Of a stretch of 64,000 nt of DNA, positions 43,662 through 56,667 are shown one piece after another. A model generated the notes under the pieces. The model was not told the origin of the DNA. It saw only the letters and a program-made list of their open reading frames with translations, and searched no databases. The translations under genes were made by a program, and so were the position numbers. Each line of letters begins with the position of its first letter. Within the stretch, counting starts at the first letter, position 1. This DNA is from Terriglobales bacterium (GTDB lineage Bacteria; Acidobacteriota; Terriglobia; Terriglobales; Acidobacteriaceae), in contig DASPRM010000068.1 of the NCBI GenBank assembly GCA_035624455.1, positions 1-64,000 of the forward strand, written 5' to 3'.

Positions 43662-44102
43662 ATGGAAATCAGCGCCGCAACAGAAAAGCTGCTCGCCGCC
43701 AAGAAAGCCAAAGGACTGAGTTTCGGCGAACTCGGCAAAGTTATTGGGCACGACGAAGTATGGGTAGCTGCTCTGTTGTACGGACAAGCCAAGGCCAGTG
43801 AGGAAGAAGCCAAGAAACTGGGCTTAGCCCTCGGCGTTTCAGCCGAACTCGCTGAGCCTCTTATGGAATTTCCCAGCAAGGGCTTGGGCCCGGTGGTGCC
43901 AACTGACCCCCTGATCTATCGCTTCTATGAAATTATGCAGGTGTACGGAATGCCCATCAAGGCTGTGATCCATGAGAAGTTTGGCGACGGCATCATGAGC
44001 GCCATCGATTTCAGCATGCACGTCGAAAAGGAAGCCGACCCCAAGGGCGATCGCGTAAAGATCACGATGTCAGGAAAATTTCTCCCGTATAAGAAGTTCT
44101 AG
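43662..44102 (+). CDS. cynS: Cyanate hydratase (cyanase)
   Basis: Cyanase converts cyanate and bicarbonate to ammonia and carbon dioxide. The 146-residue product has the N-terminal helix-turn-helix-like region and the catalytic residues Arg87 and Glu90 ([14 protein letters not shown]) and Ser113 ([10 protein letters not shown]). These correspond to the E. coli Arg96, Glu99 and Ser122, all offset by nine. The ATG has GGAGGGG just upstream. No cynT carbonic anhydrase or cynX transporter is near, so it appears as a stand-alone detoxification or nitrogen-scavenging gene. Confidence 0.94.
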
Positions 44103-44363: not shown

Positions 44364-46604
44364 CTAGTGAGTCTCCCCGTCCCCAGGATGGAAATCGGGA
44401 GTGTCCAGTTGCTGGGCCACAGATTTGGAAGGCAATACCGGAGGTTCGGGAAACTGCTCCTGATCTTTTCCTTTCAGTGCCACCTTCATGAAATCGACCC
44501 AGATGGGCAGAGCCGCCTGGGCGCCGGTTTCCTTATTCCCCAGTGACTTTTTCTCATCGAAACCCACCCAAACGCCGCAGGTCATCGAAGGAGAAAAGCC
44601 GATAAACCAGGCGTCGGTGAAGTCGTTCGTCGTGCCGGTCTTGCCTGCCAGTGGATGATTCAGTTTGCTGGCAGAGTAGGCGGTGCCGTGGAGCACCACT
44701 TCGCGCAACATTGCAGTCATGATGCGTGCCGTACGCGAGCTGACCACATCGTGCACTTCCGGATAGTCCTCCTCCAGAACATGGGCGCCGTAATCCTCAA
44801 CTTTCCGGATATATCGTGGAACGACGCGAACGCCGTCGCCGGGAAAAGTCGTAAACGCGCTGGTCTGCTCCATCAGGGTAAGGTCCGCGGAGCCCAGCGC
44901 CACTGGCAGATACGGAGGAATAGGCGAGGTTACGCCAAATTTCCGCGCGTATTCGATCACGTTCTTAATTCCCACACGATCGGCGATCTTTACCGCTGGA
45001 ATGTTGCGTGATTGCGCCAATGCCCGGCGCAAGGTGATGGTGCCTTCGAACTTCCCGTCGTAGTTGTGAGGCACCCACGGTCCGGAAAGAGTGTCAAAGC
45101 TCACCGGGGAATCCACGACGGTGTCGTCGGGAGTCATTCCATCCTCGTCGATGGCTGCGGTGTATACATACGGCTTAAAAGACGATCCAACCTGCCGCTG
45201 CGCCTGGGTAGCACGATTGAACTTGGAGAGGTCGAAGTCGCGGCCGCCGACCATGGCCTTGATGTCCCCGTTTACGTTATCGATCGCCAACAACGCCCCC
45301 TGAGTTCCGGAATCCTGCTCGAGCGTGACCTGCGCGCTATTGTCGGGTGAGATAGCCGTCACTCTTACGTAGACCACGTCGCCGTTGGCCAGGATCTCGT
45401 CAACTCGCTTGTGGTGGGTCCAGGCGATCAGCGCGGGGGTAATCTCGCTGGTGTATTTTCCCAGTTTCACTTCCGCCCGAGCCGGCGAGATCGAAGTCAC
45501 CAGCGCGTGCACGTAGGATCCGGCCTGAATGGGCTTGCTCCAATCAGGGTGATCGAATTTGTTCAGCTCGGTCCCTTCGGCAATTGCGTTTTCCAGCTTG
45601 CCTTTCCAGCCATGGCGGCGCTCGTAGGCGGCCAAACCGTCCAACACTGCCTGATTGGCGGTGGCCTGCAGCTCGGAGCTGAGGGAGGTATAGACGCGCA
45701 GGCCACCCTGGTGAACTTCATCACTGCCGTATTTCTTTTCCAGATAACGGCGGATTTCTTCGACAAAATAAGGCGCCAGATAATTCGGATCTGCCTGGAG
45801 ATGCAGCCGCAGAGGAGAGTTCTTGGCGCGTGCGGCTTCCGAAGCGGTGATCTTTCCATCCTCCAGCATGGAGTTGATTACCAGGTTGCGCCGGCGCAAG
45901 GCGCGGTCCGGATTGTTGATGGGCGAGTATGCATTCGGCGCCTTGGGCAGACCTGCCAACAGAGCGGCCTCTTCCAGCGTGAGATCTCGCGCCCGCTTAC
46001 TGAAGTAATACTGGGCTCCCGCTTCGAATCCATACACGCCATGCCCAAGAAAAATCTGATTGGCGTAGAGCGTGAAGATTTGCGGCTTGGTAAAACGCCG
46101 TTCAATCTGGATGGAGAGCAATACCTCCTGCACCTTGCGGTTGAAGGTGCGCTCAGGGGACAAGAACAAGTTTCGAGCCAGCTGCATGGTTAAGGTCGAA
46201 GCGCCTTGTGCGCGCGTGCCCGACGTCAGGTCACGATAGGCAGCGCCAATGCCGCGCCACAGATTGATTCCCCAGTGCTTTTCGAAATCCTTGTCTTCGA
46301 TGGAGATGATGGCGTCGCGCAGGAGCTTGGGGAAATCATCGTAGGAGACCACGATGCGGCGCTGCAGCGCAAACGAACCAATCACCTTGCCCTGATCATC
46401 GTAGAGTTCCGTGACCGAGCTGGGGCGATAGTGCTCCAGTTCACCAATCTCGGGCAGATCGGTGGAGTAGACCAGCAGCAGCCCGCCCAGTGCGCCGACC
46501 ATGGCGGAGGCCAGCACCAGAAGGCCAAAGATCATCCACCGGACAAGCCGTTTTCGCCGGGGCTGGTGAGCCGCAAGCTCTTCAACCGGTGTCTTGGTCG
46601 CCAT
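44364..46604 (-). CDS. Class A penicillin-binding protein (PBP1A-like)
   Basis: A bifunctional peptidoglycan synthase. The 746-residue product has an N-terminal membrane anchor (residues about 23-47), a GT51 transglycosylase domain with EDKDFEKHWGIN, QGASTLTMQLARNLFL, RKVQEVLLSIQIE and IFLGHGVYGFEAGA, and a transpeptidase with SSFK near residue 471 (QVGSSFKPYVY), SRN (ALAQSRNIPAVK) and KTGT near 652 (LAGKTGTTNDFTDAWF). A Gly/Asp-poor C-terminal tail follows. The S41-family gene lies 123 bases upstream on the same strand, so the two may be co-transcribed. Confidence 0.95.
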   Translation of the reverse strand: MATKTPVEELAAHQPRRKRLVRWMIFGLLVLASAMVGALGGLLLVYSTDLPEIGELEHYRPSSVTELYDDQGKVIGSFALQRRIVVSYDDFPKLLRDAIISIEDKDFEKHWGINLWRGIGAAYRDLTSGTRAQGASTLTMQLARNLFLSPERTFNRKVQEVLLSIQIERRFTKPQIFTLYANQIFLGHGVYGFEAGAQYYFSKRARDLTLEEAALLAGLPKAPNAYSPINNPDRALRRRNLVINSMLEDGKITASEAARAKNSPLRLHLQADPNYLAPYFVEEIRRYLEKKYGSDEVHQGGLRVYTSLSSELQATANQAVLDGLAAYERRHGWKGKLENAIAEGTELNKFDHPDWSKPIQAGSYVHALVTSISPARAEVKLGKYTSEITPALIAWTHHKRVDEILANGDVVYVRVTAISPDNSAQVTLEQDSGTQGALLAIDNVNGDIKAMVGGRDFDLSKFNRATQAQRQVGSSFKPYVYTAAIDEDGMTPDDTVVDSPVSFDTLSGPWVPHNYDGKFEGTITLRRALAQSRNIPAVKIADRVGIKNVIEYARKFGVTSPIPPYLPVALGSADLTLMEQTSAFTTFPGDGVRVVPRYIRKVEDYGAHVLEEDYPEVHDVVSSRTARIMTAMLREVVLHGTAYSASKLNHPLAGKTGTTNDFTDAWFIGFSPSMTCGVWVGFDEKKSLGNKETGAQAALPIWVDFMKVALKGKDQEQFPEPPVLPSKSVAQQLDTPDFHPGDGETH

Positions 46605-46727
46605 AGCTCTCGTTGAGGCTCAGAATAGCACGTTCAGATGACGGCATTCGGGATTAGCAGCGAGGGTCCGATAAAGCAAAATGGCGGGCTCAAGCGGCCC
46701 GCCATTAGCTCAAGATGTGCACAAACG

Positions 46728-47945
46728 TTAGCTCTTGTTTACGCGTTTGTTGAGCACTTCGATCGCGCGTTTGAGCTGATCGTCGTTCTGCTGTGTCCGC
46801 GGCTTCTTCTCCGGTTCGGAGGGATTGTTTTCGTCTTCGTCCGGAAGGATGAAGTCGTCGTTGTTGTCGGCGACCATAACGGTGGGGGTCACCGCGGTGT
46901 CCTGAATGGCTTTGCCATTGGGACTGTAATATTTGGCGACTGTAAGAATCAGAGCCGAACCATCGGGAATATCGATGACCTTCTGGATGGATCCCGCCCC
47001 AAAGGTCTTATCGCCCACCACATCGGCGCGCGCATTGTCCAGCAGCGCAGCGGCCACGATTTCGGCAGCGCCGGCGGTGCCGCGATTCACCAGAACTACT
47101 ATGGGCAGACTGGTAATGTCTTTTTGGGGATCAGCATTGAAAGTCTCGCGCGGGTACTTTTGTCCCTGCAGATAGGCGATCGTTCCATGGTTCAGGAACA
47201 GATTGGCAACCGCAATGCCTTCCGACTCATCGCCCTCGGCACAATTACGAAGATCGAGCACGAGCTTGCGCGCTCCGTGGTCCTGGAGGTCTTTGATTTT
47301 GGACGCCAGTTCCTGAGCTTTGCCTTTGGTCAGAGCATCAACCTTCAGATATCCAATTCCGTCGTCCAGGGTCTTTTCGGATACGGGAGGAATCTTCTCG
47401 ACATCGCGAACAATGGTGAGGCGCAGCGGCTCGGCGCGACGGGCGCGCACGATGGAGACATTCACATTCGAGCCCTGCGGACCGGAAAGCATGGTAAGGA
47501 TCTCGGCCAGCGACAAGTCGCGCGTGCTCTTTGACTCGATCGATTCAATGATGTCGCCGGAATCAATGCCCGCTTTATCGGCTGGGCCTCCGGGGATAAC
47601 GGAAACCACCGCCGCATAGCCGAAGCGCTTCGAAACTGTAGCTCCGATGGCAGCCCTTCCTTCAGTCTTATGGCTCTTGTATTCCTTGTACTCAGCGGGG
47701 CTGAGATAGCTGGAATTGGCATCCAGTGATTCCAGCAATCCATGCAAGGCCCCGTCAGTTACCTGGGGAATATTGGGCTCTTCCACGTACTCCGTGCGCA
47801 CGCGCGAGAGGACTTCGCTGTAAACACCCAGCTGCCGATAGGCGCCATCATTGGAGGCAGCGCGTACCCGCAAACCACCCATAACTGTGAAGAGCACTAA
47901 AGCCAGGGAAAGGACGAGAAAGCAGGCTTTCAATCTCTTGGACAT
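46728..47945 (-). CDS. S41/CtpA-like PDZ protein lacking the Ser-Lys dyad
   Basis: A 405-residue exported or membrane-anchored protein (signal anchor at about 8-30) with a PDZ domain near 100-180 and a C-terminal-processing-peptidase fold. The catalytic Ser-Lys pair is gone: in the usual GSASASE motif the product reads GTAGAAE, with Gly where Ser sits, and 25 residues later GAGSIQ has Ala where the Lys of the GKGTVQ motif sits. The glutamine is kept. So it is probably a non-catalytic PDZ/S41 scaffold. The ATG at 47945 has AAAAGG five bases upstream. It precedes the PBP1A gene. Confidence 0.85.
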   Translation of the reverse strand: MSKRLKACFLVLSLALVLFTVMGGLRVRAASNDGAYRQLGVYSEVLSRVRTEYVEEPNIPQVTDGALHGLLESLDANSSYLSPAEYKEYKSHKTEGRAAIGATVSKRFGYAAVVSVIPGGPADKAGIDSGDIIESIESKSTRDLSLAEILTMLSGPQGSNVNVSIVRARRAEPLRLTIVRDVEKIPPVSEKTLDDGIGYLKVDALTKGKAQELASKIKDLQDHGARKLVLDLRNCAEGDESEGIAVANLFLNHGTIAYLQGQKYPRETFNADPQKDITSLPIVVLVNRGTAGAAEIVAAALLDNARADVVGDKTFGAGSIQKVIDIPDGSALILTVAKYYSPNGKAIQDTAVTPTVMVADNNDDFILPDEDENNPSEPEKKPRTQQNDDQLKRAIEVLNKRVNKS

Positions 47946-48180
47946 GAACACCTTTTGAGAGGAGCAAATCCCAGCTGGAACTTACTTCCTTATTATAAGG
48001 CCCTATCTGCTCATTATAGAACGGTTCGGTTATCCCAATGGCTGCTCTCCTCTGGGCTGAACCCTTGGGAGCATCCATCCGTACCAGCACTCTCGTTTAG
48101 ATGTGCTGCACTGCTTATTTGGACGCCATGCCGGGGAAAATGTTGCTGAAAATTACCGATGATCCTGCGAAATTTGGAAC

Positions 48181-49289: not shown

Positions 49290-50606
49290 TCACCGCAAGA
49301 CGTAACAGGCTGTAACGGCCTGGAAGGTGTCCAGACGTCCCCAGCCCATATCGGGATCGCCAATGTAGTGAGCCAGCGCCAGCCCCCAGGGCACACTCGA
49401 ACTGCTGCAGCCCCCGCCGTTGTTCCCGAGCATTACGGCCGCAGTGCCGGCAACAAAGGGCGTGCTGAACGACGTGCCCCATCCTGCCGCATAGGTACCC
49501 CAAGGATATGTGGTCATGATGCCTTCCCCGGGCGCAGCCATCCACACCGGTGGCGCTCCGTAATTGGTAAAGCTGGACTGGACATCGGAGTTGGAGGTGG
49601 AGGCGACATCAATTACTCCCGGCAGCCCGGCGGGATAGACGACCGTCCGAAGACCATCGTTTCCGGCCGAGGCCACCGAAACCACTCCCTGGCTGTTGGC
49701 GTAACGAATGGCGCGGGCGAGTTCCGTGGAATAACTGGTGTAGTCGAAGCTCATATTGATCACGTCAGCCCCATTCTTGACCGCGTAATAAATCGCCCGC
49801 AGGACGTCGGAATCGTAACCGGTGCCATCGGCGTGGAATGCCTTCAAAGGCATGATTTTTGCCTGTGGCGCCACCAGGTGCACCACCCCGGCCGTCATCG
49901 TGCCGTGTCCGAAGGCGGAATATTGGCTGCCATCAAGAACCGCGACGGTCCTCTGATCCAGCACCGCCACAGTGCGCTGGTTGACCTCGGCGGTTTGCGC
50001 CGAGCTGCTGTCAGGACTGGCATTCACGTCGGCTTTTTCCGAGCCGCCGCTGACGTTGCGGGTGAAGTCGTATCCGCTCACAAGCACGGGCATCAATACC
50101 GGGTGTGTAGGATCGACGCCGGTATCAATTACCGCCACGGTCACACCTGCGCCTGCAGCATTGAGGACGGAATGAGTCTGGTCGGTGCGAATAAGCTGAT
50201 TACCGGGCTGGGTCACGTAACCGCGCCACACGGTCGCGCCGTAATACGAAACCGGCGTTTTGTCGCTCAGGTAGGAAGGCGGGGAATCTGCGTACGCTGG
50301 CTGGGTGTTTACCACCTGATCAATTTCAACTGAAAGCACCCCAGCCTGAAGGCTCAGGCGGAGGATTCCGGTGATGGGATCAAGAATCGCCGGGAGGGTC
50401 ACCAGGAACAACTGCCCGTCAGGATCGCCTAGTCCGGTAACTACATGGCAGCCGGTCAAAAGGCAGGTGAGATTGATACCGGGCAATCCCAGCGAGTCCC
50501 GCACAATCAGACGCGTCTGCGCTTGCAGTGCGGGAGCGCCCAGCGAAATCAGCAGCAAAAAAACCACCAGGCAGTGAAAACCGGCCCTTGCTCGAATACC
50601 CTTCAT
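49290..50606 (-). CDS. Secreted S8 family serine protease (subtilase)
   Basis: A 438-residue exported protease. A signal peptide (ARAGFHCLVVFLLLISLGAPALQAQ) leads into a prodomain-like stretch of about 100 residues. The catalytic triad is intact: Asp in VAVIDTGVDPTHPV near 157, His in FGHGTMTAGVV near 231, and Ser in GTSFSTPFVAGTAA near 376. A direct repeat QRTVAVLDQRTVAVLD precedes the His motif, in a non-catalytic loop. The C-terminus has a short Gly/Cys-rich tail. It lies in the minus-strand train, 84 bases upstream of the HD-GYP gene and 124 bases downstream of the zinc-finger protein gene. Confidence 0.94.
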   Translation of the reverse strand: MKGIRARAGFHCLVVFLLLISLGAPALQAQTRLIVRDSLGLPGINLTCLLTGCHVVTGLGDPDGQLFLVTLPAILDPITGILRLSLQAGVLSVEIDQVVNTQPAYADSPPSYLSDKTPVSYYGATVWRGYVTQPGNQLIRTDQTHSVLNAAGAGVTVAVIDTGVDPTHPVLMPVLVSGYDFTRNVSGGSEKADVNASPDSSSAQTAEVNQRTVAVLDQRTVAVLDGSQYSAFGHGTMTAGVVHLVAPQAKIMPLKAFHADGTGYDSDVLRAIYYAVKNGADVINMSFDYTSYSTELARAIRYANSQGVVSVASAGNDGLRTVVYPAGLPGVIDVASTSNSDVQSSFTNYGAPPVWMAAPGEGIMTTYPWGTYAAGWGTSFSTPFVAGTAAVMLGNNGGGCSSSSVPWGLALAHYIGDPDMGWGRLDTFQAVTACYVLR

Positions 50607-50730
50607 AAGCTCAATCCCCTCTCATCGGGCGCTTGGCGGCGGGGGATGAGCGCGAGTCTAAGATCTGGCTTGGCAGCGCGCTACTTACAGCCGTAACCCG
50701 GTTCTGGTCTCTTACGTAATTGGTAAACAT

Positions 50731-51336
50731 TTAGTCCAGGCTCCCCAATGGGATCCACAGCGTCTTGCGGTCTATAGTTGCGATCGAGACTCGCAAGTCA
50801 CGTGTTGCTTCAAATTCGAACTGAAACTCGCCGTATTTATTGGCTTCAGCCGCGGTTACTTTCTCTTTGCCCATCCACAAAACTACGGTGGCGTTTCCCG
50901 GCCAGCAGAGCGGCGCCTGCTTGTCGAGCACTTGACCAGATGCATAAATGCGGCTTGACTGCGGCTGCCGCTCAAAGCGCAAATCCACGGTGAGGCCTTC
51001 AACCTCGAATACGAGTTGGCGGGTGCTGACTGAGCCAGTGCGCACGCCCGCCGCGAGCGGCTGCAGCAGGCTGTCGTAGACAAGGCTGGCGATAGCAGAC
51101 TCTGACTCATTCGCTTCGGTGCCGGCGAAGCCTAACTTCACCAGCCGCACAAGATTCTCGGGAGGTGTGTATTCGCTTTCACCGGTGGCGAAACGTTCCA
51201 TTCCTCTCCAAAGATCAAAATCAGCTTTGCATTCTGGACAGCCTGCCGTGAGATGGGCTTGGAGTTCGTGCGTACGGTCGACGACTCCGACACCGCGGAC
51301 AAAATCGGCCCAAGCTTCTTCGGAAAAATGCGGCAT
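50731..51336 (-). CDS. Soluble protein with anti-sigma-type zinc finger
   Basis: A 201-residue protein. Its N-terminus has the sequence HLTAGCPEC (His28, Cys33, Cys36) after a short helix, similar to the HxxxCxxC finger of zinc-binding anti-sigma factors. No transmembrane helix is visible. The C-terminal half is beta-rich (LTVDLRFERQ ... GEFQFEFEATRDLRVSI) and resembles an Ig-like/CnaB-type fold, without a named family. Its place beside a TPR-CHAT protease and an ECF sigma factor suggests it is an anti-sigma factor or a CHAT substrate. Both ideas are inferences. The ATG at 51334-51336 is the only good start. Confidence 0.68.
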   Translation of the reverse strand: MPHFSEEAWADFVRGVGVVDRTHELQAHLTAGCPECKADFDLWRGMERFATGESEYTPPENLVRLVKLGFAGTEANESESAIASLVYDSLLQPLAAGVRTGSVSTRQLVFEVEGLTVDLRFERQPQSSRIYASGQVLDKQAPLCWPGNATVVLWMGKEKVTAAEANKYGEFQFEFEATRDLRVSIATIDRKTLWIPLGSLD

Positions 51337-51452
51337 TCAAGTCCTCGTGTTTTTTGGGGATGTCGCCCAACCAATGGGGCGTTTCTTTCATTGAATAAGG
51401 GAGGGCAAGCGCTCAAGAAATATAGCTATTAAGAAAAAAATACTTGGGCTCA

Positions 51453-54311
51453 TTACCCCTTTCCTATCAATAAGAAAGGCGCCCAGTGATAGGGATGGGG
51501 GTAGCGCTCCCGTAACTCCAGCATGGTTCCCTGCATAGCTGCGGGAAGGGAAAAACCCTGCCCGAGCCGGGTGTAAAAGCCGATCATGAAATCTTTGGTG
51601 CTTTCGTCATGAACGTCCCACAGGCTAAGGCTGAGGGTATGCGCTCCAGCCTGAAGGAGACCTCGTACCAACCCGAGAAGCTCATCGCCCTCGGTGACCA
51701 CGTTCAGTCCGGTGGCGCAGCCACTCAGCACGATCAGTTCGGCGGGCAGTTGCAGGTGATAAATGTCATATAAACTCAGGTGCGAGCCTGCCAGACGAAT
51801 GGCCGAAAACATTGGATTGTCCTGGCGAAAATAGCCATGAGTGGCGATATGTATGACGCGGCTGTTGCGTCCATGGGCCCGCAAGACCTCTTCGGTGGCG
51901 GCCTTTCCGACAAAGAGCCGCGAATTTGACAGAATCCGGCTGAGAGCCTCGACCTCAGTTTGAATCGAGGGAGCCTGTGCATCGGGAATTCCCAGGATCA
52001 GCGAATCGCTGGCTGCAGTAGCTTGCCTGTTCTGACATAGGGCATGAATGCTGGCGCTGGGGGCATAGGAAGTGGTGTAGCGGTCTACCAAGTAGGAGTC
52101 GCCATCGTGCAGGGCATGAAATGGAATGTAGTGCAGGAGCCCGTGTGGTACGAAAACCAGATGTCGCGCATCGAGGAGATGGCGAATAGGTGCAACCAGT
52201 TCCTGGTAGAGGCCTTGAAGATGCGCCTGTGTGGCGTGCAACAGGGATTCGCCGAAGGTAGCCACGTACTGGGGATCGAGGCGGAATTTTGATAACTGAA
52301 ACTGCAATAACTGCGATAGCTTTTGAATCCGCGAATGCACCGTGACTGGCGTGATGCGAAGCTGGTCGCGACTCAACACGCAGGCGATGATCCTGTCCTG
52401 GATGCGAAAGTACTCAACCAGCGCTGTATCGGGTGCGAGGGCGGCGCGAATCTGCTCCAGCGGCATCGCAGAGGCGACCTGCAGACCCGCTTCGCAGGCT
52501 TCCGCAATCGTGGCTTCCTTGAGGGCGCGAGCCAGATCGGACTCGCGCGCACTCGCCTGCTGCTCTAACTGTCTGATCCTTTCGGGTGAACGCTCTTCCG
52601 GCCGCAGCTGTTCGCGCTCGATCAGGTTGTAGTACCAGTTCAGTTCCTCGCGCAGATTTCGAATCGATCGCACCAATTCGCTTTGGCCCGCGTCGGATGC
52701 GCTGCTCACATGCAGTGATTGGCTGAGCAGGTCCATCAAGGTCCGCGATTTTGCCAGCTCGATGTAAGCAAATGCCTCCTCAAAGCCGCCGGGACGCCGC
52801 AGGCACAGGTCCACCAGGTTTTCGTACACTTCCAGCTTGTTCTGGAAGAAAGCGATTTTCAGTTCCTCGCCGCGAAGGTTGCTGCGCAATCGTTCTACGG
52901 ACTGGCGGGCGCGGACATAGGATTGATAGGCCTTCTGCTCTTCTCCGAGGGCGCGCTCAACCTCACCCATCAGGAACTCGGCCTGATACTTCAGAATCGG
53001 CGAGTCGAATTTCTCCAACCCGGACAGCGCCGCCTGGCAATGTTGCTGGGCCGCAAGAGAATCGTTCATGCGCAGCGAGATTCGAGCCATCAGTAGTTGA
53101 GCAAGTACCGCCTTTCCGCGCATCAACGACGTTCGAAAGAACTCGTGCGCGCTAAGGCAGAGACGGCGTGCCTCGAACAGTCGCCCCTCGTTAAACAACA
53201 CTAAGGCTTCGTAGAGATCGATGAGGGAAGGCCAAACCTGGTTTTGATCGCGGACAAACATCTGCCGGGATTGTGCGAACAGCTTCACTGCCTCAAAGGC
53301 CTGGCCAGTTCGGCTTACGGCTATCGCGGTGAAGGCAAGTGCCTTGGCGGCCTCATAGCCAAATCCCAGTTGTTGAAAGCCTTCGTATGCATCCCTGCCC
53401 AGTTCAGCGGCCTCGGTATTGAGGTTCAATTCCAGGTAAATTTCCGACAGGTCCAGATTGCAGAGCGCAGACTGATAGGAGTCATCAGCTTTCTTTGCGC
53501 TTCTTGAGGTGTCCCCAAGCATATGGATCGCCCGTCCATACTCGCCGCGCAGAAAGTAGAGGTAGGCGATGTTGTAGTCGGCGTAGGCCACCAGGATTGG
53601 CATGCCCTTCTGCTCACAGTGCTGGCGCGCAATCCGGTGAAACTCCAAAGCTCTGGGAAAATCGTTCAGGCTGATGTGGCAGAGGGAGATGTTGCTGAGC
53701 ACGGCGGCGAGGCCTTCCGCATCGTCGTGCTGCAGCAACTCATCATAGGCTTGCCCGTAGAAGGCGAGCGCTTCCGAGAATCGATCCTGGCGGTGATAGA
53801 TGTTTCCAACATTGATTTCCAGCCGCGCCAGGCGGTGCGTGTTTCCTTGCCGGCGGAAGATTTCGCGTGCCCGTTCCGCGTGCGCCAGGGCCTGATCGTG
53901 ACGGCCAAGCAGCAGCAGGGGCTGGATAGAGCCGCTCAGCGTGCGAGCAAGCTCGGTGTCGGCCTGGGCTCGCTCAAAGAGCAGGATCGCCCGCTCATGC
54001 AAAGCGATCGCGGTCGCGTGCCGATCGAGGGCATACATGGCATTGGCTTTAGCGCGGAGACCCTTGGCGAGCGAAATGGTGTCACCGCATGCCTCGGCAA
54101 TATTGATTGCGGTATCTGCCAGACGCTCCGCGCGGTGGGTATCGACTCGCACTTCCTGCCAGACACGCTCAGTAAGAAGCCGTACGACTTGCGCCCAGTC
54201 GATCGCCGGCTGCTGGACAACTAACCTTTGTTGGCTTGCGGAATCCTCCAACCTGAGGAGCTGGTCAATGGTCGCGTCCATTTCGGTCTTCGGGGCCGCC
54301 TGGACGCTCAT
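51453..54311 (-). CDS. TPR-CHAT domain putative caspase-like protease
   Basis: A 952-residue protein. Residues about 45-480 are a long series of tetratricopeptide repeats (for example NTHRLARLEINVGNIYHRQDRFSEALAFYGQA). A coiled-coil region follows, and a CHAT domain at about 640-952 with VFVPHGLLHYIPFHAL, catalytic His825 in HIATHGYF and Cys865 in VLSGCATGLN. CHAT domains are caspase-like cysteine proteases. The start ATG overlaps the stop codon of the sigma gene (TAATG), so the two are translated in a coupled way. In the Craspase system a TPR-CHAT protease cleaves a protein that binds an ECF sigma factor; here sigma and finger genes flank it, but no CRISPR component is present. Confidence 0.93.
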   Translation of the reverse strand: MSVQAAPKTEMDATIDQLLRLEDSASQQRLVVQQPAIDWAQVVRLLTERVWQEVRVDTHRAERLADTAINIAEACGDTISLAKGLRAKANAMYALDRHATAIALHERAILLFERAQADTELARTLSGSIQPLLLLGRHDQALAHAERAREIFRRQGNTHRLARLEINVGNIYHRQDRFSEALAFYGQAYDELLQHDDAEGLAAVLSNISLCHISLNDFPRALEFHRIARQHCEQKGMPILVAYADYNIAYLYFLRGEYGRAIHMLGDTSRSAKKADDSYQSALCNLDLSEIYLELNLNTEAAELGRDAYEGFQQLGFGYEAAKALAFTAIAVSRTGQAFEAVKLFAQSRQMFVRDQNQVWPSLIDLYEALVLFNEGRLFEARRLCLSAHEFFRTSLMRGKAVLAQLLMARISLRMNDSLAAQQHCQAALSGLEKFDSPILKYQAEFLMGEVERALGEEQKAYQSYVRARQSVERLRSNLRGEELKIAFFQNKLEVYENLVDLCLRRPGGFEEAFAYIELAKSRTLMDLLSQSLHVSSASDAGQSELVRSIRNLREELNWYYNLIEREQLRPEERSPERIRQLEQQASARESDLARALKEATIAEACEAGLQVASAMPLEQIRAALAPDTALVEYFRIQDRIIACVLSRDQLRITPVTVHSRIQKLSQLLQFQLSKFRLDPQYVATFGESLLHATQAHLQGLYQELVAPIRHLLDARHLVFVPHGLLHYIPFHALHDGDSYLVDRYTTSYAPSASIHALCQNRQATAASDSLILGIPDAQAPSIQTEVEALSRILSNSRLFVGKAATEEVLRAHGRNSRVIHIATHGYFRQDNPMFSAIRLAGSHLSLYDIYHLQLPAELIVLSGCATGLNVVTEGDELLGLVRGLLQAGAHTLSLSLWDVHDESTKDFMIGFYTRLGQGFSLPAAMQGTMLELRERYPHPYHWAPFLLIGKG

Positions 54312-54898
54312 TAAAATCCCTTCTTCTCTAAATGCTTTCTCAGGCGCGCCAGACAGCGCCCGCGAATAAAGCCGATGGAACCAGTCGCCAGCCCGAGTTC
54401 CTGAGCGATCTCTTCATAGGGCCGGGCGGGAATTTCGAAGAAGAGCATGTGAATCAGCTGGCGGCAGCGCGCCGGCATCTCGGAGATGGTGTCCCGCAAG
54501 GTCTGCTCCTTTTGCAGTTGAACCAGCAGCTCCTCGGGAAGCATCTCAGGGCTTTCCTGTGCTTCTGTCGCCGACGGCTCGAGCTGCACTTGCCGGCCTT
54601 CGGCGCGCTGGTGGTGCAGACACTTGTGATAGCAGGTTTGTATCAGCCACTTCGGCAAAGCACGGTGGTCGCGAAGCTGCGGCAGCTCCGAAAGCAGGTC
54701 CACACAAACCGCCTGAAAGACGTCGGCGGCTTCCTGATACATTCCCAGCTTGATAGGAATCGAGTAAATAAGATTCTTGTACTTATCAATCAGCGCTGCC
54801 CAGGCCTGCGGGTCGCCGTTCAGGCATTGCCTGATGAGCCGCTCATCGGCTGCGCCGGGCGTTCGCTGGGCCTGTATTGTGGATGCAGCAGTGGTCAC
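54311..54898 (-). CDS. ECF-like sigma factor
   Basis: A 195-residue sigma-70 family protein. Region 2 is seen as WAALIDKYKNLIYSIPIKLGM and DVFQAVCVDLLSELPQLRD (about 30-90), a short linker with few conserved residues, then region 4 as DTISEMPARCRQLIHMLFFE and RPYEEIAQELGLATGSIGFIRGRCLARLRKHL. The frame extends further upstream to 54952, but the GTG at 54896-54898 overlaps the importer-component stop (GTGA), so this start is preferred. The stop overlaps the CHAT start. The extracytoplasmic-function class is likely from size and domain layout. Its target promoters are not visible here. Confidence 0.9.
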   Translation of the reverse strand: MTTAASTIQAQRTPGAADERLIRQCLNGDPQAWAALIDKYKNLIYSIPIKLGMYQEAADVFQAVCVDLLSELPQLRDHRALPKWLIQTCYHKCLHHQRAEGRQVQLEPSATEAQESPEMLPEELLVQLQKEQTLRDTISEMPARCRQLIHMLFFEIPARPYEEIAQELGLATGSIGFIRGRCLARLRKHLEKKGF

Positions 54899-56667
54899 GG
54901 CGCCCCCGCATTTCCCTGGGGCGCGCCGACGTAGAGTTGCTCTACGTTCCACAAGGTGTACGGATCGAGCACCGCGGGATGAAAGTTGCCCACGCGAGAA
55001 TCCGCTGCGGCCAGAATGTTGGGAGTCGCCAGGAAAATGAAGGGGAGGTTTTCTGCGATCAATTGTTGAACCCGGTCATAAAGCTGCTTGCGCCGGTTGT
55101 AGTCGAGGGTGACCAGTTGCTGCTGCATGAGCTGATCGGTTTCCCGCTCCCAGGCAGTAGCGGGTTGGGTCTCGCCGAGATGCCATAGATGCGATGTGCC
55201 GTTAGACATCCACACATTCATCTCCGGATTGGGGTCGGCGTCGCCTCCACCTAATCCCATAATCGCGGCTTCATAATCGAAACTCTGAAAGACGCGATCA
55301 ATGAGGGAGCGGAACTCCAGGGGCACCACGTGTACCTGCATGCCAAGGTGTGACAAATCGTCTTGCAGGATGGTCGCCATCTTCATGCGCTGACTGTTAG
55401 AGGAGCTGGTGACGATCGAAAACTCCACCCTCTGCCCAGAGGCATCCTGCAGCTGTCCTGCCTGATTCCAAGAAAAGCCTGCGGCCTTTAGCAGCTCGCG
55501 CGCGCGATCAAGCGAATGCTGGGGGTGCGGAATGGTGTTGTTGACCCATAGCTTGTTGCCCGGCCCCACATTTCCCCACAGCGGTGCTCCGCGGGTTCCG
55601 TAGACCAGGCGAACAATGGCCTCGCGGTCGATGGCTACTGATACCGCCTGACGGAATTTCAGATCGCGAAACCACATCTGCTTGCGCGCAATGAGATCCA
55701 GTTTTTTCGCGCTTAAATCGTTCTGATTGAAAACCAGGAAGTTGTATTCCAGGCTGGGCCCGAGATCGGCAAGCCGGAACCCGGTGCGGGAGCGCTCGCG
55801 TCCCAGCAGGTTGTAGTTGTCCGAACTCAGCCGGCTGATTACATCGGTTTCGCCCGCCTCAAAGCGCATGACCTGGGCGTCTTCCGTGCCCACGAAGAGA
55901 AATACCAGTTCGTCAAGGTAGGGCAGACGATGGTTTTCCTGATCGATTTTCCAGTAATAAGGATTTCGTTCCAGAACCAACCGCTGCCCGGGCACATATT
56001 GCTTCAGCCGAAACGGTCCCAGCCCAGCGATATCGCTCGGCGAGACATTCAAAGACCATGCCTGGATGAACTTCCCCTCGCGATACGGCCGTTCCAGCAG
56101 ATGCCTGGGCAACATTGCCAGCCCATCAAAGAGCCGCTCAGCCGCGGCATAAGGACGCGGCAAGGTGAAGCGCACGGTGTACTGGTCGAGTCTGGTAACC
56201 GTGATGGGCTTGCCATCGATGATCAGGAGATCGCGCTGCGGCGAATCAACTCTCTCATCCATGTAAACGGCGAATGAGAACACGACATCGTCAGCATCGA
56301 AGGGGTGCCCATCCGAAAAGCGAATTCCTTTACGTAGAGACAGGGTGAAGGTCCGGCCATCAGGGGAAATCTTCCAGGACTTGGCCAGCGCGGGTTGGGT
56401 CTGCTGGGAGGCGCGGTTAATCTCGATGAGGTCCGTCATCATTCGCCCAATAACTTCCCGCGAAACCGCATCGGTGGCGAGCACAGGATTCAGTGTTTTG
56501 GGCTCGGCGCGCTCACCAACGGTGAGATGTCCGCCATAGTGACCGGAAAGACCCTGCGCTCGCTCGAGTTCTTCAAGCGCATTGAGTTTTTGGGGAACCG
56601 GCGCCGCTGCATGACACAGGCAAGCGAGCAGACACACCATCAACATCAGGCTTGTGACTTGCTTCAT
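54895..56667 (-). CDS. Peptide ABC transporter substrate-binding protein (OppA/DppA type)
   Basis: A 590-residue family-5 extracellular solute-binding protein. The N-terminus is a signal peptide with a possible lipobox (LMVCLLAC). The SBP_bac_5 pattern is clear: EPKTLNPVLATDAVSREVIG, ALAKSWKISPDGRTFTLSLRKGIRFSDGHPFDADDVVFSF, a long ligand-binding lobe, KFRQAVSVAIDREAIVRLVYGTRG and LVTLDYNRRKQLYDRVQQLI near the end. It binds peptides or small cations outside the membrane. It lies 30 bases after oppC, and its TGA overlaps the GTG start of the sigma factor gene. Confidence 0.92.
   Translation of the reverse strand: MKQVTSLMLMVCLLACLCHAAAPVPQKLNALEELERAQGLSGHYGGHLTVGERAEPKTLNPVLATDAVSREVIGRMMTDLIEINRASQQTQPALAKSWKISPDGRTFTLSLRKGIRFSDGHPFDADDVVFSFAVYMDERVDSPQRDLLIIDGKPITVTRLDQYTVRFTLPRPYAAAERLFDGLAMLPRHLLERPYREGKFIQAWSLNVSPSDIAGLGPFRLKQYVPGQRLVLERNPYYWKIDQENHRLPYLDELVFLFVGTEDAQVMRFEAGETDVISRLSSDNYNLLGRERSRTGFRLADLGPSLEYNFLVFNQNDLSAKKLDLIARKQMWFRDLKFRQAVSVAIDREAIVRLVYGTRGAPLWGNVGPGNKLWVNNTIPHPQHSLDRARELLKAAGFSWNQAGQLQDASGQRVEFSIVTSSSNSQRMKMATILQDDLSHLGMQVHVVPLEFRSLIDRVFQSFDYEAAIMGLGGGDADPNPEMNVWMSNGTSHLWHLGETQPATAWERETDQLMQQQLVTLDYNRRKQLYDRVQQLIAENLPFIFLATPNILAAADSRVGNFHPAVLDPYTLWNVEQLYVGAPQGNAGAP

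Follow-up and report, generated by a model that had tools for sequence, protein, structure and literature searches.

An Ancient, Catalytically Dead Relative of CtpA in Acidobacteriota, Probably a Non-Proteolytic Hub for Peptidoglycan Enzymes

An S41/PDZ protein without catalytic residues, to which we will refer as "pseudo-CtpA", is encoded on the minus strand of the window (the whole stretch of 64,000 nucleotides of Terriglobales DNA analyzed here), and proteins of the same type occur in most of the acidobacterial families examined. Judged by its sequence, pseudo-CtpA is almost certainly devoid of the proteolytic activity of C-terminal processing peptidases (CTPs), and it is moderately probable that this ancient protein serves peptidoglycan enzymes as an oligomeric, non-proteolytic hub. 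Wall growth in bacteria is under the control of CTPs, which degrade peptidoglycan hydrolases. Pseudoproteases and S41-fold non-peptidases, such as the interphotoreceptor retinoid-binding protein (IRBP), are already known kinds of protein; no published description of pseudo-CtpA, or of a phylum-wide, single-origin dead CtpA, was found in open-licence papers.

Gene, Domain Architecture and Fold

The gene and its product comprise the following features (basis of each assignment in parentheses):

46728-47951, minus strand: pseudo-CtpA, S41/PDZ protein without catalytic residues (GTG start at 47951; ATG at 47945 likelier)
47859-47951, minus strand: N-terminal hydrophobic export segment, residues 1-31 (sequence; positive charge, end VRA-AS)
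47724-47840, minus strand: N-terminal dimerization-type helices, residues 38-76 (model and conservation)
47715-47717, minus strand: Asn79, replacing the triad His (H84/H85) (alignment)
47391-47663, minus strand: PDZ domain, residues 97-187 (Pfam, model, alignment)
46875-47357, minus strand: S41 protease core (PF03572), residues 199-359 (Pfam)
47229-47246, minus strand: NCAEGD, residues 236-241, replacing the N-P-G-G loop of active CTPs (alignment)
47070-47072, minus strand: Gly294 at the position of the nucleophile Ser (alignment)
46995-46997, minus strand: Ala319 at the position of the general-base Lys (alignment)
46983-46985, minus strand: Gln323, retained (alignment)
46734-46781, minus strand: C-terminal helix, residues 391-406 (model and conservation; an oligomerization helix in CtpA)

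The reading frame is intact down to its stop at 46728 and encodes 407 residues from the GTG at 47951 or 405 from the ATG at 47945, just 5' of which lies a Shine-Dalgarno-like AAAGGTG. Pfam scores reach 141 bits for Peptidase_S41 and 47 bits for PDZ_6, and the NCBIfam cut-off for TIGR00225, "C-terminal processing peptidase", is also passed (234.7 vs. 218.6 bits), so that automatic annotation makes the protein a peptidase. In the export segment, A31 is conserved at 94% within the order and an AlphaFold2 model places a helix at residues 3-25; the sequence suggests that the segment is cleaved, and the protein would be located in the periplasm. In the pseudo clade, the N-terminal helices stand out by strong conservation (Y38, V47, Y55, V56, G67, G71), with a value of 0.63 for pseudo-CtpA in the window's order vs. 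0.37 in active CTPs; the corresponding helices make the dimer and bind LbcA in Pseudomonas aeruginosa CtpA (PMC11021448). The PDZ domain has retained the hydrophobic-Gly-hydrophobic peptide-binding motif and lost the first Gly of G-L-G, and L393, A396 and L400 of the C-terminal helix are conserved phylum-wide. At the family level, pseudo-CtpA thus belongs to S41A, with S41 and PDZ in CtpA order and oligomerization-type helices at both ends.

The AlphaFold2 model, obtained with 55 aligned homologs as input (pLDDT 85.5, pTM 0.79), found its best solved structure in Helicobacter pylori CtpA (Z 38.5, rmsd 3.5, 344 aligned), and P. aeruginosa CtpA scored Z 37.1; domain architecture and fold are those of both MEROPS S41A enzymes (Z 37-38, 32-36% identity). 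The initial annotation, made from the sequence alone, had judged fold and PDZ intact; the fold in the model is the complete CtpA fold.

Loss of the Catalytic Site

The loss of both catalytic residues, claimed in the initial annotation, was confirmed by alignment: G294 stands against Ser300 and A319 against Lys325 of H. pylori CtpA, 25 residues apart, and the Gln reported as kept, Q323, aligns with Gln329. In P. aeruginosa CtpA, S302A and K327A abolished activity in vivo (PMC11021448). The effect of Q331A was only minor in vivo (PMC11021448), and the retained Gln is therefore weak evidence of anything. Two further losses were found beyond that annotation, since the triad His (H84 in P. aeruginosa, H85 in H. 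pylori) has become Asn79, and N-P-G-G has become C-A-E-G. Of what defines an active S41A enzyme, the Ser-Lys dyad is replaced by G294/A319, and the triad His and NPGG loop by N79 and CAEG. Compared with CtpA, the protein thus lacks Ser, Lys, His and the NPGG loop, and cleavage is impossible by known CTP chemistry.

Column conservation across the phylum revealed no replacement Ser/Lys, Ser/His or Cys/His pair and no conserved His or Cys; the polar residues conserved phylum-wide are Y38, Y55, D77, Y82, D133, D233, R235, T292, E297 and T316. A relocated Ser/Lys pair, which had been named beforehand as one observation that would overturn the pseudoenzyme claim, was looked for on this phylum-wide scale and rejected, as no such pair is conserved. 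In pseudo-CtpA, a degenerate active site is combined with an intact fold that selection has preserved, as expected of a pseudoprotease, and the term "pseudoenzyme" is strongly supported by the order- and phylum-wide loss, the lack of a conserved substitute dyad and purifying selection.

Distribution in the Order and the Phylum

The gene was matched in all 150 genomes searched in the order, with an intact reading frame in nearly all. In the searches of the order and the phylum, two pseudo-CtpA copies (G091:C2 and G408:C2) showed a single TAG in frame within the matched stretch, probably a matter of assembly or alignment ends. Among the Terriglobales copies retrieved and inspected at the site, Gly is invariant at the nucleophile position and Lys is absent from the base position. 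A search of 396 genomes covered the phylum, and the loci retrieved in three rounds contained 221 pseudo loci that could be read, including near-duplicate records of some genomes. At the nucleophile position the 221 loci have G in 211, S, N, Q and R in two each, and A and H in one each; a Lys at the base position occurs in a single locus (L275, with Asn at its nucleophile position). Given 211 Gly nucleophiles and one Lys base among 221 loci, chance is excluded. As regards the Gly/Ala pair as the mark of a conserved subgroup, Gly stood and Ala did not, the base position being free (D, E, V, S, A, R, L, and others) and Ala a minority: within the order it is mostly Asp or Glu, and elsewhere Arg, Ala, Leu, Met or Gln.

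A second S41 protein of about 400 residues and of the pseudo type was present in about 50 of the 54 acidobacterial families examined, alongside normal active CTPs. Four families (f4, f5, f8, f29) have active-type or fragmentary S41 proteins only, which may reflect true loss or assembly gaps. Active-type acidobacterial CTPs keep Ser, Lys, Gln and Asn237 in 25/25, the Asn and Gly of the NPGG loop also in 25/25, and the triad His in the 24/24 aligned there. In a single scan of genome contigs, the best 80 matches were all acidobacterial; six plasmid S41 records from other phyla are of the active type, the Bacillus one as judged outside the nucleophile position.

Three S41 matches were obtained in the source genome (4.39 Mb, 166 contigs): pseudo-CtpA, a canonical active CTP (L001; TASAAE / FGKGLVQ) and a distant one. 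In the latter (L003 820-2679, contig C74), a simple alignment shows that TWSAAE keeps the Ser and that the FGKG motif reads GGAGCG, with the Lys missing; from its sequence, it is possibly another divergent or inactive S41. Within the window, a minus-strand run at 49290-54952 was also noted by eye, with an ECF-type sigma factor (54311-54952), a TPR/CHAT-like protein (51453-54311) whose gene overlaps that of the sigma factor, a small HxxxC..C anti-sigma-like protein (50731-51336) and a subtilisin-like S8 protease (49290-50606) with an apparently intact Asp/His/Ser triad; the run looks like a regulated protease cluster.

Origin and Selection

Trees were built without the catalytic columns from 79 and then 76 pseudo rows, together with active rows of Acidobacteriota, Pseudomonadota, Campylobacterota, Bacillota and Bacteroidota. 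A single branch divides all pseudo from all active rows (SH-aLRT 99 and 98; root not fixed), several inner forks being weak and some deep rows long-branched. The proteobacterial EnvC-linked CtpA falls with all other actives, on the opposite side of this one branch from the pseudo clade (root not fixed). A topology joining the Terriglobales pseudo forms with acidobacterial active CTPs was rejected (p-AU 0.019), which rules out recent descent of pseudo-CtpA from the local active CTP. The median NG86 dN/dS is 0.079 (320 pairs). Pseudo-CtpA would then have a single origin, at the base of Acidobacteriota or close to it, with joint loss of the catalytic Ser, Lys and His and of the NPGG loop, and would have been inherited vertically since, under purifying selection and alongside a separate active CTP.

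Genomic Neighborhood

Two further features lie downstream of the gene:

46680-46706, minus strand: terminator-like hairpin between pseudo-CtpA and PBP1A (strong hairpin, then a U-containing tail)
44364-46604, minus strand: PBP1A, bifunctional glycosyltransferase/transpeptidase (downstream neighbor conserved in the family)

The location upstream of PBP1A had been described correctly, and the linkage is conserved in the window's family: PBP1A is the next same-strand gene downstream in about 53/69 loci, the next commonest neighbor reaching 14/67. The link is confined to this family and absent from a second family of the order. About half of the 53 loci, most of them from the window's subclade, have a comparable hairpin of different sequence at this site; in the sister subclade, both genes are separated by a short gap that has no hairpin. 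Co-transcription is consequently doubtful in the window and many close relatives, where the terminator-like hairpin separates the genes, and is likely in only part of the family. Conserved hydrophobic PDZ-ligand C-termini were sought in the PBP1A proteins of the family and not found; PBP1A tails as PDZ ligands were rejected, as they are conserved only as an acidic tail and only in the window's subclade. This tail (...DTPDxxPGDGExH) is missing from the sister subclade. Beside PBP1A and a STAS-domain gene, 43662-44102 holds a cyanate hydratase gene.

Other lineages have other peptidoglycan-related neighbors. In other classes, 13-18 of 38 loci have RuvX and MltG, the latter a peptidoglycan lytic transglycosylase, divergently upstream of pseudo-CtpA. 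In 11/17 loci of deep lineages, pseudo-CtpA is directly preceded on the same strand by an abutting M23/LytM gene. Its products are without the H-x-H zinc motif, and mostly without H-x-x-x-D, and end in the EnvC-like form (L/Y)YFE(L/I)R..G.P.(D/N)P..WL, so they look like EnvC-type activators. Loci of this kind include L221, L225, L230, L238, L242, L266, L269-L271, L281 and L284, among others, and two catalytically dead proteins (EnvC-like M23 and pseudo-CtpA) would here share one apparent operon. An FtsE-FtsX-EnvC-CtpA operon considered for L221 was discarded, the upstream genes being a thiolase and a hydroxyacyl-CoA dehydrogenase. P. aeruginosa ctpA is part of an envC-ctpA-PA5135 operon (PMC12569750), the deep acidobacterial pseudo form likewise sitting after an envC-type gene, and plasmid records of Sinorhizobium, Ruegeria and Piscirickettsia have M23/EnvC immediately before an active S41. 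From this shared order, the pseudo form appears to hold the place of CtpA. The envC-ctpA order is found in the deep lineages and not in the window's own family; no EnvC-like M23 was found in the window's genome, where both M23 genes retain zinc motifs, and the EnvC-like partner therefore seems lost there.

Possible Function

Read as a hub, pseudo-CtpA would combine the complete CtpA architecture, in an exported periplasmic protein, with the absence of any means of cleaving peptide bonds. Peptidoglycan enzymes or their activators would be held either by the PDZ domain together with the vacant substrate channel or by the N-terminal helices, and pseudo-CtpA would set where or when they act. The partner would ancestrally have been an EnvC-like LytM factor, and in the window's family probably PBP1A, the support from gene order being indirect. 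Oligomerization and partner binding are presumed; a scaffold role in the cell wall, also suggested in the initial annotation, is in our opinion an even call. The more detailed proposal that, in Acidobacteriota, the cutting of wall enzymes by CtpA-type proteases gave way to, or was supplemented by, a dedicated non-proteolytic hub derived from CtpA, ancestrally with an EnvC-like amidase activator as partner and later as a PBP1A cofactor in Terriglobales, is put forward tentatively, as conceivable rather than probable.

The main competing explanation, which we regard as unlikely, ties pseudo-CtpA to the active CTP in its own cell, as a decoy or as a regulatory subunit, either in a hetero-oligomer or as a competitor for substrates or adaptor. 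An active CTP is also present in most genomes examined, the oligomerization segments at both ends are conserved, and there are precedents in MamO, which activates MamE-dependent proteolysis (PMC4794232), and in CspC, which activates CspB (PMC4619724). However, active acidobacterial CTPs are longer (about 540 residues) and form a deeply separate lineage, their grouping with the Terriglobales pseudo forms being the one rejected above (p-AU 0.019), and in the loci seen pseudo-CtpA never adjoins an active CTP gene but peptidoglycan genes.

It is rather improbable that, instead of a protein scaffold, the vacated S41 core has become a module that binds small molecules, lipids or metal. The S41-fold modules of IRBP do resemble the model (Z 17.7-19.7), and MamO binds metal in its dead protease domain (PMC4794232); yet the old active site of pseudo-CtpA is conserved only at Gly294, Glu297 and Gly240, with a near-free Lys position, unlike a specific ligand pocket, no His or Cys is conserved, and the PDZ and oligomerization parts were retained. 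That the protein still is a protease by means of residues moved elsewhere is very improbable: a conserved Thr292 and, in Terriglobales, Lys324 are close to the old site, but active CTPs also have Thr or Ser at 292, not as nucleophile, other classes have Glu, Gln or Arg in place of Lys324, and His and the NPGG loop were lost too, with none of the possible catalytic pairs conserved. A decaying duplicate, which the loss of catalytic residues might suggest, can practically be dismissed in view of a dN/dS of about 0.08, intact frames in nearly all genomes of the order, one origin and phylum-wide retention.

The hub reading has partial parallels among known dead proteases. Both MamO of magnetotactic bacteria and pseudo-CtpA (the latter by prediction) are periplasmic PDZ serine-protease relatives whose site is dead and whose functions are non-catalytic (PMC4794232); MamO differs in its trypsin-like family, its restriction to magnetosome islands and its metal-binding di-His, whereas no His is conserved in pseudo-CtpA. 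The CspC/Csp proteins of Clostridioides difficile represent a conserved dead protease with a signaling or regulatory role in peptidoglycan physiology (PMC4619724), although they have a subtilisin fold and belong to spores. IRBP has an S41 core without proteolysis, its similarity to pseudo-CtpA being only distant, and differs as a eukaryotic ligand carrier without PDZ.

Significance

PRK/TIGR00225 annotation lets pseudo-CtpA pass but does not check the catalytic residues, which are absent here, and hundreds of genomes carry the annotation "S41 family peptidase" for a protein that is not a peptidase by known chemistry. A dead CtpA that has one origin, occurs phylum-wide, is strongly selected and lies in the envC-ctpA position or next to PBP1A separates the binding of CTPs from their cutting and makes this separation testable. 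If the proposed replacement or complementing of CtpA-type proteolysis by a hub were true, control of the peptidoglycan machinery throughout a phylum would depend on holding, not on cutting.
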